From Synergistaceae bacterium (GTDB lineage: Bacteria > Synergistota > Synergistia > Synergistales > Aminobacteriaceae): a stretch of 64,000 bases of DNA. Made by a program: the position numbers and the translations under genes. Shown here in pieces: positions 673 through 8,838 of the stretch; position 1 is the first letter of the stretch, and each line of letters begins with the position of its first letter. Under the pieces are notes generated by a model, which was given only the letters and a program-made list of their open reading frames with translations, searched no databases and was not told where the DNA came from. The DNA lies in the NCBI GenBank assembly GCA_018436785.1, contig JAHDKR010000048.1, forward strand, positions 1 through 64,000, given 5' to 3'.

Positions 673-1731
673 TTGAAAAGAAGAAGTATGGTATTCCCTG
701 GAGTATTTCTGTTTTTCTGCGTACTCGCGGCGCCGGTTTTTGCGGATGTTCTGCCCCGGACAACTACCGCTACACGCGACATTATGCTTGTCGAGGAGTT
801 CGAGGAAAAAGAGGAGCAAACGCCAGTCGCTTCCCCTGTATGGACCGGAATGAACGGGGAAGAACAAGCCGCTCGTCTTGGCGTGGAAGAGATGCACAAA
901 ACAGATTTTTCCGTTTCGCTCTCTTCGGGGAAATCAGCTGAAGGCGATGTTTACGAGATCGGCGACAAGATCGAATTCACCTTCACCTCCGACAAGGACT
1001 GCTATGTGACGCTTCTGGACTTTACGCCTTCGGGAAAGATTTATGTGCTGTTCCCCAACAAGTGGGTATCGAACAACTTCGTGAAGGCAGGAGAGAGCGT
1101 CGTCGTCCCGGCGGCGGGGCAGCAATTTGCAATGAAGCTGGGAGGGCCCGCCGGCGTGGATATCGTCAAGGCCATAGCGACCAACGTGGAGACGAAAATA
1201 CTTGATCCAGAGAATCAGAAACTGTTCGGTCCGTTCTCTGTGTTGGAAGATTCCAAGGTGGCGACCAGAGACATCATGCTTATTGAGGAGGAACCGGAAG
1301 CCGCGGCGGCAGCCTCGCCGGAAACGCCTCTCGAATGGACTGCCGCTTCGCTCGCTGTCTTTACCAAGGGCGATTCTCCGGAAAAAGGCGGTTTCGGCGT
1401 GTCGATCGAGGAAAACTGGATCGCGAAAATCTGGGCGGACCGCGACGCCTTTCTGACCGGCGAATCCATATTTGTGAAACTTCAAAGCAACCGGCCCGCG
1501 ACGCTCGTATCTCTGGTGAACACCGGCGCCAGCGGCAGGGAGAACATCCTTCTTCCCGAAGGCGTTGAAAAAAGCGTGCTCCCGGGGGCCATCGCGATTC
1601 TTCCTGGCAAACAGGACAAATGGAAGCTGATCGCCGCCACCGAACCGGGAGTCGATGTGTTGACCGCAGTGCTCCGAGACGAGTCCGGAGCGGAGATGAA
1701 GGTCTCTTTCAGCATCACGGTCGAAGAGTAG
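673..1731 (+). CDS. Exported tandem DUF4384 protein
   Basis: A 352-residue protein. The TTG start at 673 is chosen because AGGAGG ends 8 bases upstream; the reading frame is open further left but has no ribosome site there. A signal peptide (VFLFFCVLAAPVFA) predicts export. Two DUF4384-like beta domains follow. The first (about residues 75-185) carries GDKIEFTFTSDKDCYVTLLD and PSGKIYVLFPN. The second (about 230-350) is more divergent but keeps the PGVDVLTA strand matching PAGVDIVKA. Each unit is preceded by the same peptide, ATRDIML(V/I)EE. DUF4384 has no known enzymatic role; family members often sit beside caspase-fold or CHAT proteins, as here. The gene has its own promoter and terminator, so it is a separate transcription unit just upstream of the CHAT operon. 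Function is not known. Confidence 0.85.
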   Translation: MKRRSMVFPGVFLFFCVLAAPVFADVLPRTTTATRDIMLVEEFEEKEEQTPVASPVWTGMNGEEQAARLGVEEMHKTDFSVSLSSGKSAEGDVYEIGDKIEFTFTSDKDCYVTLLDFTPSGKIYVLFPNKWVSNNFVKAGESVVVPAAGQQFAMKLGGPAGVDIVKAIATNVETKILDPENQKLFGPFSVLEDSKVATRDIMLIEEEPEAAAAASPETPLEWTAASLAVFTKGDSPEKGGFGVSIEENWIAKIWADRDAFLTGESIFVKLQSNRPATLVSLVNTGASGRENILLPEGVEKSVLPGAIAILPGKQDKWKLIAATEPGVDVLTAVLRDESGAEMKVSFSITVEE

Positions 1732-1745
1732 GGGAGTCCATCATA

Positions 1746-1786
1746 CAGGAAGCGGGCGAAGGCGTCTTCTCCCGCTTCCTGTTTTT
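1746..1786 (+). terminator. Rho-independent terminator
   Basis: An 11-bp perfect stem (1746-1756 with 1771-1781) is followed by TTTTT. It ends the DUF4384 transcript 15 bases after the stop codon and separates it from the downstream CHAT operon. Confidence 0.8.
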
Positions 1787-1879
1787 GTATTCGCCTCCGT
1801 ATTTCATAGCGAGAAAAAGGAGCGCCTTCTCTTCGGAAGGGCCGGCTCGGACAAAATATCTTTTAGGAGGTTGCATATC

Positions 1880-2911
1880 GTGTCGCGAAAGACTTTTCTT
1901 TGGACCGTAACGGCGCTCTTGCTGCTGGGCGCAGGAATCGTGATCGCCCAGATGGCGCTTGACGCGTTGGCGCTGAATGAAACCTCGGTGGCGGCGGAAA
2001 GTCAGGAGTTGCAGGGAGTTCAGGGCGCCGACGAGACCACGATGGTCGTACAGAAGACGAAGATGCAAAAGAGCGGCGCGTCGGGAAAAAAGGCGTCGGC
2101 CTCCATGGACGAGATTCATAAGAAGAAGCTGCCGCAGTACAGGGTCATCAACGGAGCGCTGGATACGCAGAAAAAATTGTACGCGGCGCAGCGGGAAAAC
2201 AGTCCCCAGGCTTCACGCTTTGCGGCGGCACTGAAAAAGGAGATTCCGCAGGCAAAGGGCGCGTTGAAGAAGCTGCGGGCGCTCACCGACCAGGAAGTTG
2301 GCTTGATCAAGTCAACGACGAAGGATGCGCAGGCAATCAAAGTAGCCGAGGCCTCATACGCCTCGTGGAAGAGCGCCGTGGATCATCTGAAGGAACAGCC
2401 TTTGACGGAAAAGGAGTTGAAGGCGCGCAACCAGAGTATCCAAAAAAATTCGGAGATTGCGGTCGTGAATGCGCATGATCAGGCGAAAACGGTGAAGTCC
2501 GAGGAGCTCGCTCCAGAGGACAAAAACCTACTGAAGAGCAATGTTGTCGGCGGCGCGAAGAACATTTTTTCCAATCTCCAGCAGATCATGAGCGACATGC
2601 AGTCGGTGATGAACGCGCTCGGCGGTCTATCCGGGACGGGGGGGCTGAATGTGAACGCGCTCCAGGGACTCGGAGGGGCGTTTCAGGGAGTTGCGAAGCA
2701 GATGCAGGGCTTCCTTGGCAATTACGGGCCCTTCGCCCAGACCGTAGGCGCTCTTGTTGGCGAACGGGTTTCCGTCCCCACCCTCTCCATACCCGACTTT
2801 ATGAGCTTGGTGAAGATGGGTAGCGGCGGCGCCCCCGGAGCCATTCCCTCGGTTCCCTCCGTTCCCTCTGTACCGTCGGTTCCCGGGGTGAAGTTCAAAC
2901 CTCCGTTTTAA
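1880..2911 (+). CDS. Exported protein of unknown function, CHAT operon
   Basis: A 343-residue protein I cannot assign to a family. The GTG at 1880 is preferred because AGGAGG ends 9 bases before it; the in-frame TTG at 1871 abuts the ribosome site. The N-terminus (WTVTALLLLGAGIVIAQ) is a signal peptide or membrane anchor. The middle is rich in Lys, Gln and Ala and probably helical or coiled coil (residues about 30-220). It is followed by a Gly/Met/Gln-rich stretch (GGLSGTGGLNVNALQGLGGAF) and a proline-rich tail of repeated P-S-V units ending in GVKFKPPF. The next gene, a CHAT protein, starts 36 bases downstream, so the two are probably co-transcribed. It could be a structural partner or a substrate of the CHAT protein; that is inference from position only. 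Confidence 0.75.
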   Translation: MSRKTFLWTVTALLLLGAGIVIAQMALDALALNETSVAAESQELQGVQGADETTMVVQKTKMQKSGASGKKASASMDEIHKKKLPQYRVINGALDTQKKLYAAQRENSPQASRFAAALKKEIPQAKGALKKLRALTDQEVGLIKSTTKDAQAIKVAEASYASWKSAVDHLKEQPLTEKELKARNQSIQKNSEIAVVNAHDQAKTVKSEELAPEDKNLLKSNVVGGAKNIFSNLQQIMSDMQSVMNALGGLSGTGGLNVNALQGLGGAFQGVAKQMQGFLGNYGPFAQTVGALVGERVSVPTLSIPDFMSLVKMGSGGAPGAIPSVPSVPSVPSVPGVKFKPPF

Positions 2912-2947
2912 ACCGTTTCGAGGGGCGTAACGAAAGGAGGCGGGCGC

Positions 2948-5900
2948 ATGAGGAAAACTACGGCTGGATTTGCGATATTTCTCCTGTTGTGGGCGTGCAT
3001 TTTTCTTCTTCCCGGGGACGCTTTTGCAGTCTCCAAGGGGGAGGAGGAGATGCAAAAAGGCCTGAAGGCGTACGCGGCAAAAGAGTTTTCACTTGCGGCC
3101 GCGCACTTCGAAAAAGCCTCGGCGCTTCTCGAAAAGGAGAAAAAACTTCTGCAGGCTGGAGACGCCGCATATAACGAGGGGCTGTGCCGCAGGAGCATCC
3201 CGCATGAAACAGGGGAGGCGCTGAGGGAACGCCAAGCGGCTCTCCTTGCCGCTTTTGACCGCTCTGCCGCGCTCTATGCCAAGGCCAAGGAGGAAACGAA
3301 AGCGGCGAACGCCCTTCTGCAGAGCGCGCAAGCGGCGCTGGCCGCCGCGCGTCTTTCCGATGCGGAGACGCGGTACGCCGAAGCCCTGTCAAAGGCGAAA
3401 AAAATCAAGTCGGATATGCTCCAGGGGCTCTCTCTTGAGGGGCTTGGCAAAGTTGCCTTTCAGAGGGCGCGTTTCGGCGAGAGCCGCCATTTTTTCGGCG
3501 ATGCGTTGGAGCGACTGCGCTCTGTACCGGCCGCTCGTTCTCGCGTAGCGCTGCAGTTGATCGCCTCGCTCAGAAAGTCGGGGGATATGGCCGGAACGCT
3601 TGAACGGCTTGAAGAGACCGAGAAGGAGCTTCTCCCCCTTGAGAAGGACGAAAAGACCCGTGCGGTTTCCGGGTTCCTGCGATTCCTCGTCCTTGCCGAG
3701 CGAGGGCACACGTTCCTGCAGATGGGGATCTTCCATAAAGCGCAGGAGTATCTCCAGGCCGCGTTGGAGTTCGACGAGAACAACCCGATGATCAGCCAGG
3801 AACTCCGTTTGGGCGTTGAAGGAAACAAGCTGGTGGCGGAGGGGGAGCTGGGAAATCCAAAGTTTTCCGCCGACGCGCTGGAGACGCTTCGCAGCATGGC
3901 TGAAAACAGGGGACTTCACGATCTGGAATGTGCGTCGCTTATTTCAGGCGGGAGGCTGCTGCGGGTCGACGGGCAGTACTCCGAAGCCATGCTCCTTTTT
4001 GAAAAGGCTGCCCGGATCGCACGAGAAGCCGGGTTGGGCAACCGTTACGTTCAGGCGCTCTTGGCAAAGGCGAACCTGATGTACTTCCAGGGTATGTGGA
4101 AGGCGAGCGAGAATGTGTACAGGATGGCGTTCAACGGCGCGCTCGAACAGGGAGATATGGAGTCCCTACTCGGCGCCGTTTTAGGAATTGAGCGGATTTC
4201 CCGCGCCAATCACCTGGGGATGTCGGGCAAGATGGACTACCGGAAGATGCAGGGGATTCCGTGGAGAGGCGCCCTGCTCCAGGAGAAGAACATCCTCCCG
4301 GCGAGGGGCGGTAATGCGCTGCCTATGGCCTGGAGACGCCTCGGCGAGCTATCCAGGGAGTGGTTTACCGCCTCCGGCCCGGGGTTGAGAGGCGCTCTTG
4401 CAGTGGAGGCGGCGGCGGAGATACTCGCATGGAACCGGATGAAAAACCTGTCGCGGCATCTTGTCGCGGAAGGCGTTCTGCGGCTCGTCTCCGGACGTAA
4501 CGAGACGGTGGTTCAGGCGGCTGAGGCCCTGCTTTCCATGGAAAAAGAGCGGAAGAACGCCGCGGACCCGGAGACGTTGTCGCAAGCTTATGCGGCGTGC
4601 TGGGACGCTCTTGAGCACGGCGCTGGAAAAGGGCTCCTCGGGAGAAGAGGGGAATTGGCCGATATTCAAATCGACGGTATCCTTCAAATTCCGACATCTC
4701 TACCCAAAAATCCGAAAGCTCCTGCGAAGACGAGTTCTTCGGCGGAGGTGCAGCGCCTTCTTTCAACGCTGGCGGAGGCGTTGAACAGTCTCTCGTTGAA
4801 GAGTAAGGAGCAGCAAATAGTTGTCCGCGCGCTGCTGAGCGGCGAGCCCATGCCGGAATCCCTTGCGGCGCAGCTGCTCCGCGCGTCCTCTGCCCGAACG
4901 GTTACTGCCGCGAAGAAGATGGAGCAGCGCCTCTCCGGAGGAGAGGCGGCCGCCCGTAAGGAGTTCGCCGGGGTTCTTCTCGATGTGATTGAACGCCTCG
5001 GGAGTTCTCCGCTTGATGAAATCCGGGGAAACGCCAAGCTGGCCCGCTACATCAAGGGGATCGAAAGCGAGTCGAGAGAAGAGCGGATGCAGCTCGCGGA
5101 ATCCCTCGCCCTATTGACCCCGCCCTTCCTCGTCTACTCGCTCCGCGAGGCCTGTCAACTTTCGGATATTCACAACGCATGGAGAGGACTTGCCCTTCGC
5201 GCCCTGTTCCTGCAAAAACTCGGCGTCTTGGGAGAGGCAAAAGCGATGTCGCTGCGCCAGGGGGTCGATCATCTTGCGAGCTCTCTGTCGAAGGGAGCCG
5301 ACGTCTTCGAGAAGCAGTGCGCTCTTGTGGATACTGACTCATCTCAAGATCGGGAACGAAAAATCTCAAAAATGCTCTCTCTTGCAAAAGAACTGTCGCG
5401 GGCGGAGCTAGCGGCGCAGCTCGCGCAGTGCAGGGCGGTGGCGGATGCGCCCGAAGGGGTTGTCGGGTTCGATGACAGGCAGGCCATGAAAGAGCTTGTC
5501 GCGCGGTATCTTCTTGCGCTCGGAGAGGCGGAGCAGGCGCTGAACGCCGCGGAGGACGTGAGGCTGAGTTTTGGTTTTTCGGCGCGGAGTACTGGAGGGA
5601 TGCCGAATCCCGAGGTCGTCTGGAGAACGCTCCTTGTCTCCGCGAAGGCCTCTCTTGCATTGGGCGCTGTGCCGCACGCAGTCCGTTTTCTGGACCAGGC
5701 GATCGAGGTCATGGAATCCGTCTCCCCCTCCGACGGCACGAGTTCACAAGCGACTGCCGACAAGCTGGATGTGTACCGTACGGCCGTAGAAACGGCGTAT
5801 AGTCTCTACGCCTCGTCCCCTTCCGATGAACACGCGGCGACGCTGTGGCGCTATCTGGAGGGAATGAAGAGCCGTCAATGGAGAGAGATGCTTGCGACCA

Positions 5901-7303
5901 CCGGCGCCGCGTTTCTTGACCGTCTTCCTCAAAGCGAGGAAGAACACTATCAGGTACTGAGCATGTCTGCGGCGCAGCTGCTGGCGAAGATCGCCTTTCT
6001 TGATTTTCGAGGGCTTGCAAAGGAGGCTGACGAGGCTCGCGCGGAACTTCAGGATGTTCGGGGATCGCTCGGAGAGATAACGGCCCGGTACACAGTCGAC
6101 TCCGTCCGGCGAGTTCCGACGCTTGAGGATGCTTCCGACGCGCTTCATCCCGACTGGGCGGCGGCAGATTACTATCTGTCACGCGAGCTCTCCTTCGCAT
6201 TTGTGCTGGAAAAAGGGAAGCCCCCTCGCCTTGTGCAGCTCCCCCTGGACTACGACAGTTTTTTTGCGTACACGTTGTGGATGCGTACGCTTCCCGACGC
6301 GGTAGAATTCCAGTCGACACGGGCCAACGAGGCTGTCATGGCTGCGGGCGTTTCATCCCCAAGGCTCGCGAAGCAGCTTTTCGAGCCCGTGGCGCAGCTC
6401 ATCGGCGAGAAGAAAAAACTCCTCGTCATCCCCCATGATCTTCTGTACACCTTTCCCTTTGAAACCATGTCGGTTGCGAGTGGCGATACATGGAGGTTCC
6501 TGCTGGACGAAGGGTGGACTTTTGCAGAACTCCCGAGCGCGTTTCTTCTTGAGAAGACAAGAAGACCGGAAACGGCTCGGGGGAAGAAGCGGCTTGTCGT
6601 GATGGCAGACCCGGAGTACTATCCGACGCTGCGAAAGAAACACGGAGCGGAAGAAGCACGAAAAATCCTTCTCGGCGGCGTCGAGAACCCCTTAGTGCAG
6701 CAGATACGGGATACGTTCTGCAAATACATGGCCCCGCTCCGGAACGCGCGGCGGGAAGGCGACTACCTTGTCGAACAATGGAAGGGCGTCGGAGACGTAC
6801 GTTCCCTGATGGGCGCGGACGCCTCGGAGAAGATGCTCTACGATCAGGAGACGAAAGTGTGGGACGCGCACCATGTGCATATCGTGTGCCACGGCTACGA
6901 CCGGAACAGCATCCCGGATCTTCAGCCCGGGCTTGCTCTCTCCCCGGTTGCGGACACCCAGAACGATTCGTTTGCGCAGATGGGTGAACTCGCCTCGCTG
7001 AGATGGCGTTCCGATCTCGTCGTCCTCTCCGCCTGCGACACCGGCCTGGGCGATCTCTTCATCGGCGACGGGATGGTCGGTCTGAACACTGTCTTTCTTG
7101 CCGGCGGCGCGAAGGGAATGCTCATCTCCAGATGGCGGGTGCCGGATGAGAGCGCTCCCGGTTTCATGAATGTTTTCTATGAACGCATTGTCGCGGGAGA
7201 GATGCCGGTTGACGCGCTCGCTTCAGCAAAACGGGAATTGAAGAAAACGTACAGCGAAGCGTCGCACTGGGCGGTATTTAAATATGTGGGTATCCCATGG
7301 TGA
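2948..7303 (+). CDS. Exported TPR-CHAT caspase-like protease
   Basis: A 1451-residue protein with a strong ribosome site (AAAGGAGG) and an N-terminal signal peptide (FAIFLLLWACIFLLPGDAFA), so it should act outside the cytoplasm. Residues about 30-450 are repeated helical pairs of TPR type (for example LKAYAAKEFSLAAAHFEKA and FHKAQEYLQAALEFDENNP). A long helical middle region follows. The last 300 residues or so form a CHAT domain, the caspase-HetF-associated peptidase fold. Both catalytic residues are visible: His1315 in HIVCHG and Cys1363 in VVLSACDTG. The end has the usual GGAKGMLISRWRVPD and HWAVFKYVG segments. CHAT peptidases are cysteine proteases of the caspase clan, usually gated by the attached repeat domain. 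An extracytoplasmic, signal-peptide-bearing version is less familiar than the cytoplasmic CRISPR- or gasdermin-linked ones. Substrate unknown; nearby exported proteins are candidates. Confidence 0.9.
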   Translation: MRKTTAGFAIFLLLWACIFLLPGDAFAVSKGEEEMQKGLKAYAAKEFSLAAAHFEKASALLEKEKKLLQAGDAAYNEGLCRRSIPHETGEALRERQAALLAAFDRSAALYAKAKEETKAANALLQSAQAALAAARLSDAETRYAEALSKAKKIKSDMLQGLSLEGLGKVAFQRARFGESRHFFGDALERLRSVPAARSRVALQLIASLRKSGDMAGTLERLEETEKELLPLEKDEKTRAVSGFLRFLVLAERGHTFLQMGIFHKAQEYLQAALEFDENNPMISQELRLGVEGNKLVAEGELGNPKFSADALETLRSMAENRGLHDLECASLISGGRLLRVDGQYSEAMLLFEKAARIAREAGLGNRYVQALLAKANLMYFQGMWKASENVYRMAFNGALEQGDMESLLGAVLGIERISRANHLGMSGKMDYRKMQGIPWRGALLQEKNILPARGGNALPMAWRRLGELSREWFTASGPGLRGALAVEAAAEILAWNRMKNLSRHLVAEGVLRLVSGRNETVVQAAEALLSMEKERKNAADPETLSQAYAACWDALEHGAGKGLLGRRGELADIQIDGILQIPTSLPKNPKAPAKTSSSAEVQRLLSTLAEALNSLSLKSKEQQIVVRALLSGEPMPESLAAQLLRASSARTVTAAKKMEQRLSGGEAAARKEFAGVLLDVIERLGSSPLDEIRGNAKLARYIKGIESESREERMQLAESLALLTPPFLVYSLREACQLSDIHNAWRGLALRALFLQKLGVLGEAKAMSLRQGVDHLASSLSKGADVFEKQCALVDTDSSQDRERKISKMLSLAKELSRAELAAQLAQCRAVADAPEGVVGFDDRQAMKELVARYLLALGEAEQALNAAEDVRLSFGFSARSTGGMPNPEVVWRTLLVSAKASLALGAVPHAVRFLDQAIEVMESVSPSDGTSSQATADKLDVYRTAVETAYSLYASSPSDEHAATLWRYLEGMKSRQWREMLATTGAAFLDRLPQSEEEHYQVLSMSAAQLLAKIAFLDFRGLAKEADEARAELQDVRGSLGEITARYTVDSVRRVPTLEDASDALHPDWAAADYYLSRELSFAFVLEKGKPPRLVQLPLDYDSFFAYTLWMRTLPDAVEFQSTRANEAVMAAGVSSPRLAKQLFEPVAQLIGEKKKLLVIPHDLLYTFPFETMSVASGDTWRFLLDEGWTFAELPSAFLLEKTRRPETARGKKRLVVMADPEYYPTLRKKHGAEEARKILLGGVENPLVQQIRDTFCKYMAPLRNARREGDYLVEQWKGVGDVRSLMGADASEKMLYDQETKVWDAHHVHIVCHGYDRNSIPDLQPGLALSPVADTQNDSFAQMGELASLRWRSDLVVLSACDTGLGDLFIGDGMVGLNTVFLAGGAKGMLISRWRVPDESAPGFMNVFYERIVAGEMPVDALASAKRELKKTYSEASHWAVFKYVGIPW

Positions 7304-7308
7304 AGTTG

Positions 7309-7339
7309 TAAAAACCGCTTTTCGGAGAGCGGTATTTTT
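7309..7339 (+). terminator. Weak terminator or attenuator in the CHAT operon
   Basis: A short stem (ACCGCT 7314-7319 with AGCGGT 7328-7333), flanked by an A-run on the left and ATTTTT on the right, lies between the CHAT gene and the next TPR gene. It may reduce rather than stop transcription into the latter. Confidence 0.5.
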
Positions 7340-7359
7340 CTGCAAGGGGGCTCAATATC

Positions 7360-8838
7360 GTGAAAAAATACAAAATGACGTGCGCACTTCTTGTTCTGGC
7401 ACTCCTGTTCGGTGCAGCCGGAGCTGCATGTTCTTCGGAGCTTTTGCGCGAACGGGCGAAAAATCTGTATAGCGTGCAGGACTACCGGGGAGCCCTCGCG
7501 CTCTTCGACCGGTTGCTTGGAGAGATCCCGGGCGACGGCGAGGCGCTTGACTATTCAGCGTGGTGCCTGCGTTACCTCGGCGACTGGAAGAGCGCGGAAG
7601 AACGTTTCTTCCAGGCTCTTGACGCTCCGTCAGGAGCGCTGACGAGCTGGATTCACGTGGGCCTCGGCGAAACATACCTCGGCGCGGGCGATGAACGCAA
7701 AGCGGTTGCATCCTTCCAGAAGGCGATAGAGAGCGCTCCGGGCGACGATGAGCTTTTTCTTCGTTCGCAGAAGGGGATTGCCTGGGCTGCGGCATTTCTC
7801 GGAGAACGGGAGGAATACGGGCGGGCGCTCGCTCTGATCAGGGAAAAAGACGAGAAATTCGCGGAGGAAGTTCTGGGCGACACGGGAGTAATCTTAGAGG
7901 AACGCGAGGCGCTTGCGGCCGCAAAAAAAACTTCTGATGAACCGGTCGAGCCGATTCTTGTGCTGGACACAATGGAACGGCATGCGAAACTTTACGAAGA
8001 GGAAGCTCTGGAGGATGAGCTGGACGAGATTTTGTCGGAGGTCCTCGTGCAAGAGACGCCGGCTGCGGAAAAACAAGAGGACGTCCTTGAGATTATTGTG
8101 CTCGACGACGTAAAAACTGGCGGCGACGTCGCTTCTTCCGGAGAAAAAGAGGAGACGCCCGGACCGGACGAAACGCCTCCTGGCGACACGACGATCACGC
8201 CGCTTCCTACTCCGGGTGCGGCTTTGGAAAAGCCGGAGGAATCTGCGGGACCTGTGCTCTCGAAGCAAAAACCCGCAAAAAAACCTTCACAGAAGAAGCC
8301 TGAAGAGAAAAAAACCGCCCAGAGCGGCGCCACTGTCTCTCCTCCTTCTGCTGTATGGGGCGTCCGTATCGGAGTTGCTCTTGACGAAGAACTCACAAGG
8401 GCGCAGGGCGAAGGCCTCGCGGTTGAAAAGGAGAGTACGACCGACAAGTACGGTGTACGCCGTTTCCCCTTTACGCCGAAGATTACCCCCTTCCCGTCAT
8501 CCGTTCGTTCGCAAGCGGCATCCGAGTTCTACCACATAGAAGGCTACAAGGGGACCATCCTGAAAGTACACGGTATGGTGAAGACAAAACTCCTGCCGAA
8601 GCCTCTTGAATGGAAAAAGGCGACATTTGATGCAGTAGTGGACGAGTATTCGAAAGAACATGGCAAGCCCGCGATACTGACGGATCAAGGAACATCCTCG
8701 GAGGCCGCATGGCTGCTCCCCGAACGGCGGGTGCTCTGGGTGTTTATCGACGCAGGACTTGACAATACATGCCAAGTGCAGATATCGTACGTGGACAGAA
8801 GGATCCAGGCTGGTCACCTCATCGGGATATTGAAATAA
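7360..8838 (+). CDS. Exported TPR protein with conserved-looking C-terminal domain
   Basis: A 492-residue protein starting at GTG, with AAGGGGG 9 bases upstream. The N-terminus (CALLVLALLFGAAGAACSS) is a signal peptide; the Cys could be a lipidation site, but the -3 residue is not the usual Leu, so I leave this open. Residues about 25-175 are TPR-like (LYSVQDYRGALALFDRLL, LGETYLGAGDERKAVASFQKAI). A long acidic, then Pro/Lys-rich linker (about 175-325) follows. A compact C-terminal domain of about 165 residues begins WGVRIGVALDEE and ends IQAGHLIGILK; I do not recognise it. The gene is 56 bases downstream of the CHAT gene and is most likely part of the same exported system, perhaps as a scaffold. 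A strong terminator follows. Confidence 0.85.
   Translation: MKKYKMTCALLVLALLFGAAGAACSSELLRERAKNLYSVQDYRGALALFDRLLGEIPGDGEALDYSAWCLRYLGDWKSAEERFFQALDAPSGALTSWIHVGLGETYLGAGDERKAVASFQKAIESAPGDDELFLRSQKGIAWAAAFLGEREEYGRALALIREKDEKFAEEVLGDTGVILEEREALAAAKKTSDEPVEPILVLDTMERHAKLYEEEALEDELDEILSEVLVQETPAAEKQEDVLEIIVLDDVKTGGDVASSGEKEETPGPDETPPGDTTITPLPTPGAALEKPEESAGPVLSKQKPAKKPSQKKPEEKKTAQSGATVSPPSAVWGVRIGVALDEELTRAQGEGLAVEKESTTDKYGVRRFPFTPKITPFPSSVRSQAASEFYHIEGYKGTILKVHGMVKTKLLPKPLEWKKATFDAVVDEYSKEHGKPAILTDQGTSSEAAWLLPERRVLWVFIDAGLDNTCQVQISYVDRRIQAGHLIGILK

Follow-up and report, generated by a model that had tools for sequence, protein, structure and literature searches.

What does a caspase-like CHAT peptidase with an export signal do outside the cytoplasm, and do the genes beside it belong to the same system? 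CHAT peptidases are known from intracellular CRISPR-gated and developmental roles; the four-gene module considered here would, as predicted from its sequence, be a compact, partner-defined case outside the cytoplasm. It lies in the window, the 64,000-nucleotide stretch of DNA analysed, which opens a 168,660-base contig from an incomplete Synergistota genome whose close relatives are uncultured Synergistaceae/Synergistales MAGs. The ORF list and a Pfam scan bore out the four open reading frames that the initial annotation had placed at 673-8838, and these genes and their main features are as follows.

673..1731, plus strand: D4384, predicted exported tandem DUF4384 protein, 352 aa (Pfam DUF4384 6.5e-32)
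769..789, plus strand: first ATRDI(V/L/M)L motif of D4384, residues 33-39 (alignment, 14/16 homologues)
1261..1281, plus strand: second ATRDI(M/L/I)L motif of D4384, residues 197-203 (alignment of homologues)
1871..2911, plus strand: HEL, predicted membrane-anchored helical protein, 346 aa (AlphaFold model)
2006..2032, plus strand: juxtamembrane stretch ELQGVQGAD of HEL (HEL alignments)
2948..7303, plus strand: TPR-CHAT protein with predicted N-terminal signal peptide, 1451 aa (Pfam CHAT 9e-43, TPR matches)
6362..7291, plus strand: CHAT (caspase-like) catalytic domain (PF12770, 150 bits)
6890..6892, plus strand: codon of catalytic His1315, motif CHGYDR (invariant 14/14)
7034..7036, plus strand: codon of catalytic Cys1363, motif LSAC(D/E/N)TGLG (invariant 14/14)
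7360..8838, plus strand: TPRC, predicted exported TPR protein with an unrecognised C-terminal domain, 492 aa (TPR matches)

D4384 starts at the TTG at 673; homologues give no support to a longer start at 403. The weak terminator-like hairpin at 7314-7333, between CHAT and TPRC, is of a sort that chance alone often produces.

The CHAT domain occupies residues 1139-1448 (E=9e-43; 150 bits against a Pfam cut-off of 24) at the C-terminus of a protein whose N-terminal TPR part spans about 1000 residues, and it is the sole CHAT domain found in the window's genome by a PF12770 search. The initial annotation had described an intact His1315/Cys1363 dyad. Both residues are present and proved invariant in 14 of 14 full-length relatives, including pairs down to ~30% overall identity (the G155 gene and two G004 pieces are cut by contig ends), and a check for relatives that had lost the pair returned none. 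Domain score and His/Cys pair alike place the protein in the CHAT peptidase family (PF12770, clan CD). In PDB sequence searches the whole CHAT profile gave TPR matches only and no solved protease came up with the profile of the protease domain, while a single-sequence search with the protease domain found a weak match to the CHAT domain protein 8rot. We consider it probable that the CHAT protein is an active protease.

Co-occurrence of the families was assessed by family-alignment searches of 188 Synergistota genomes, with the DNA around CHAT relatives annotated for all four families. HEL was found in 17 of the 188 genomes, D4384 in 16, the module's CHAT type in 15 and all three together in 15; Fisher tests of co-occurrence gave p values of 2e-20, 3e-21 and 4e-19, and in these 15 genomes the genes are clustered wherever contigs permit. 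Linkage spans nine genera and three families, and Pfam DUF4384 was not found elsewhere among the phylum's 188 genomes, outside those 16. Partners without CHAT were encountered in three genomes only. G026 (75% complete; L052 on contig C125) has the order HEL-D4384-TPR-TPR with no CHAT between the TPR genes, an absence that could reflect either gene loss or relocation; in G011 HEL lies at a contig end; and G056 has a degraded HEL and no partners. Neighbour homologues scattered without linkage to CHAT, which would speak against a joint system, were looked for in the same 188 genomes and, beyond these three, did not turn up. Since clustered homologues occur in 15 genomes, the gene set at 673-8838 is, by genomic comparison, not a chance assembly. 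A degraded HEL with in-frame stops, with no partner genes on the surrounding stretch (L054:9107-10027), is possibly the remnant of a lost module.

Divergent, exported-looking CHAT proteins without partner genes occur at three further Synergistota loci (L038:9460-12648, L039:8917-12105 and L040:8116-12003). Because other CHAT proteins of the phylum occur without the partners, the partner link belongs to the module's CHAT type.

The window genus has the gene order D4384-HEL-CHAT-TPR, whereas most other genera have HEL-D4384-TPR-CHAT-TPR; G008 has D4384-TPR-CHAT-HEL-TPR and G047 has HEL-CHAT-TPR-D4384-TPR. Of the conserved gene order looked for at the outset, clustering has been kept and the order itself has been reshuffled between lineages; because order is not conserved, a single transcript is not required. 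Sampled flanks contain housekeeping genes, including uvrC, rpsB (ribosomal protein S2) and a GHMP kinase gene, and no recognisable defence or phage genes.

The genes also share a history. Distance matrices for CHAT, HEL and D4384 correlate with one another at rho 0.80-0.87 and with that of MetK at 0.31-0.35. G047 belongs to another family yet clusters with the window genus, and G155 falls with G118 and with one of the two copies, the second, in G024, a genome that holds two divergent modules (L033 and L037, on contigs C73 and C143) with CHAT proteins ~50% identical and a long HEL in one copy and a short HEL in the other. On these small trees the simplest reading seems to be that the module moves as a unit between lineages, since the module matrices agree mutually and poorly with MetK. 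All four genes are under purifying selection (omega 0.06-0.14 by Nei-Gojobori; values from G002 comparisons are rough because dS is high), which is strongest in HEL. Co-occurrence, clustering, agreeing phylogenies and the invariant dyad together bear out the joint system that had been inferred at the start from order and shared export, and we hold with high confidence that the genes form one joint system.

Export was judged from sequence and conservation. The initial annotation had given all four proteins an N-terminal export signal. D4384, CHAT and TPRC have signal-peptide-like, cleavable-looking N-termini across lineages; the N-terminus of HEL looks more like a signal-anchor than a cleaved signal, because its model shows the hydrophobic segment continuing into a long helix. 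That AlphaFold model (mean pLDDT 71) predicts a helical bundle with an N-terminal anchor helix. No Pfam or NCBIfam family was recognised in HEL, PDB sequence searches gave no useful match, and the model had no PDB fold match at E<0.2, in view of which neither a pore-former nor any other fold is claimed. In most other genera HEL reaches ~620-650 aa through a C-terminal extension; its C-terminal region is Gly-rich and amphipathic. The stretch ELQGVQGAD is among the most conserved parts of HEL and is degenerate in G155. TPRC has paralogues, two per cluster in most other genera, and in the window its C-terminal domain (residues ~335-488) follows a low-complexity acidic linker and matched no Pfam family.

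D4384 carries DUF4384 only, at 949-1185 and 1450-1671, without a fused Peptidase_C14 domain. The first of its ATRDI motifs sits in the predicted mature N-terminal tail, just past the signal peptide and ahead of an acidic linker, and appears in G026 as the variant KTRDI. The second lies in the acidic linker between both DUF4384 domains and reads (A/G)TRDI in 16 of 16 homologues. An acidic stretch usually follows the motif and is variable. So constant a motif next to a variable linker suggests a role in binding or processing, a structural strand being the alternative reading. The motifs are the obvious candidate for a regulator or substrate feature, and we treat ATRDI as a candidate docking, cleavage or pseudosubstrate site. 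Separases cleave after Arg. Craspase orthologues cleave at non-conserved sites (PMC11106740), so conservation of the motif says little in favour of a cleavage site, and given this variability the idea of cleavage after the Arg of ATRDI was not relied on. A pattern search of the window's own genome found ATRDI in no other exported protein; the remaining matches are non-exported proteins, and a set of further ATRDI-tagged substrates was rejected. PDB sequence searches with D4384 returned nothing useful, and an AlphaFold model built from three sequences (pLDDT 36) was not used.

Taken together, these results make it very likely that the genes encode one proteolytic machine in the cell envelope. 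We favour, as moderately probable, a CHAT protease that acts outside the cytoplasm, in the periplasm, has exported partners of its own and would be gated as follows. The reshuffled gene order, the CHAT-less contig of G026 and the failure of the protease-domain profile to match a solved protease speak against it. HEL would anchor the assembly to the inner membrane, and the TPR part of the CHAT protein, together with the separate TPR proteins, would hold the protease inactive until a partner or ligand binds. TPR gating is proposed because the TPR-CHAT protein of Craspase remains autoinhibited as long as its partner complex has no RNA bound (PMC9729208), and on this analogy we regard it as evenly poised. 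D4384 would serve as sensor or adaptor, with its DUF4384 domains binding an envelope ligand, and the two ATRDI tails, acting as substrate or pseudosubstrate, may dock either in a TPR groove or in the protease itself. The assembly would then carry out limited cleavage of some envelope protein, for which HEL, at its juxtamembrane stretch, or D4384 are the first candidates; that either one is a direct substrate seems somewhat unlikely. It is rather improbable that an envelope signal leads the exported CHAT to cleave HEL, with the ATRDI tails of D4384 as substrate or securin-like pseudosubstrate. If true, ATRDI-regulated HEL cleavage would be an extracytoplasmic protease switch for which no CHAT peptidase precedent has been described.

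The module could instead be a periplasmic maturation or assembly machine in which CHAT, with no trigger, constitutively processes D4384 and other envelope proteins as they are exported or assembled at the surface. TPR proteins are common in envelope assembly. All genes are under strong purifying selection, and D4384 has two identical, near-invariant motifs, one of them at the mature N-terminal tail, as processing sites would be. A module present in 15 of 188 genomes is, however, not part of core envelope biogenesis, and the absence of ATRDI from other exported proteins of the genome also weighs against this explanation, which we consider unlikely.

Also to be weighed is an envelope defence or cell-death module that senses phage or damage, whereupon CHAT would free a membrane-active helical domain of HEL by cleaving it, as a periplasmic analogue of gasdermin activation. 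Occurrence in scattered genomes and seeming movement as one unit would fit such a role, as would the use of TPR-CHAT as a defence-system protease elsewhere (PMC9729208) and the membrane-anchored HEL with its Gly-rich amphipathic C-terminal region. The evolutionary signature is nevertheless one of strong purifying selection, strongest in HEL, and not of diversification; the sampled flanks are housekeeping genes; PADLOC gave no defence family match beyond generic TPR and a weak chance-level match; and HEL lacks a PDB fold match. We regard the defence role as distinctly doubtful.

It is very unlikely that CHAT is a catalytically idle scaffold and that the module acts by binding only. The protein is mostly TPR, but the His and Cys are retained even at the lowest identities, and the catalytic part changes at a lower rate (Nei-Gojobori omega 0.067) than does the TPR part (0.109). 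Chance neighbourhood or lineage inheritance with no functional link could explain synteny within the window genus alone, and is exceedingly improbable against linkage of this breadth, kept despite changed order and discordant marker-gene phylogeny.

The favoured reading, an extracytoplasmic CHAT protease with dedicated partners, can be set beside known systems. Craspase, of type III-E CRISPR, resembles the module protein in its TPR-CHAT architecture and His/Cys dyad (H585/C627 of Csx29; PMC9729208), but is RNA-gated by its CRISPR partner and hence intracellular, whereas the module has a signal peptide and exported partners. No gRAMP (Cas7-11) was recognised among the module and the subset of flanking proteins scanned, and the module's four genes gave no Pfam, NCBIfam or PADLOC match to a gasdermin partner. 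HetF of Anabaena likewise combines CHAT and TPR at the membrane (PMC8406250); its CHAT is N-terminal (aa 1-555), and it has one TM segment and lacks module-type partners, whereas in the module TPR is N-terminal and CHAT C-terminal. Experimentally described CHAT proteins are intracellular or without reported export (Craspase PMC9729208; HetF PMC8406250), and no published description of an exported CHAT, DUF4384, HEL and TPR module was found in the literature searched.

Export as such does not set the module apart from other CHAT proteins, contrary to the initial annotation, which overstated the novelty of this trait. Among 18 plasmid-borne CHAT proteins, taken as best tblastn matches and so biased to top matches and inclusive of near-duplicates, 14 have hydrophobic N-termini of export type, POTRA domains being present in one of the 14. 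Exported CHAT proteins are thus not exceptional as far as predicted signals go, and TPR-CHAT genes with predicted export signals occur commonly among cyanobacteria and alphaproteobacteria. A search of the plasmid collection gave no HEL. In Pseudosulfitobacter, from which 46 records matched the CHAT query, plasmids carry a row of exported caspase, trypsin, TPR, unknown and CHAT genes (L085:732-8978 and L070:1-7386) that looks like a separate exported multi-protease cluster. It shares with the module a multi-gene exported CHAT and TPR set, and differs in its added caspase and trypsin, with DUF4384 not detected and HEL not found. A Pseudanabaena plasmid has three consecutive CHAT genes, two of them with complete N-termini and no export signals (L079:2985-11023).

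DUF4384 has its own links to proteases: it is reported from orthocaspases (PMC7475262) and from a clade of pseudo-orthocaspases that contain trypsin (PMC6426788). Protease linkage is common to these Peptidase_C14-DUF4384 and trypsin-DUF4384 fusions and to the module, but the module pairs a free-standing tandem DUF4384 protein with a CHAT protease. A Neorhizobium plasmid encodes an exported trypsin, caspase and DUF4384 protein, adjoined by a second caspase gene (L086:2455-6552), that matches the trypsin-containing pseudo-orthocaspase clade with DUF4384 (PMC6426788).

The closest parallel is on four cyanobacterial plasmids (Leptolyngbya NIES-3755 and NIES-2135, Nostoc HK-01 and Calothrix NIES-22), where an exported TPR-CHAT gene is directly followed by an exported caspase-DUF4384 gene with a twin-arginine-like leader. 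The likeness lies in the export-type N-terminus, the order TPR then CHAT and the exported DUF4384 neighbour; there, DUF4384 is fused to Peptidase_C14 (caspase), unlike in D4384, and the DUF4384 neighbours examined contain no ATRDI. A predicted exported TPR-CHAT protein clustered with an exported DUF4384 protein is therefore found in the window, its relatives and these plasmids, and because Synergistota and cyanobacteria have this association in common, the functionally uncharacterised DUF4384 domain may pair with exported clan CD peptidases in general.
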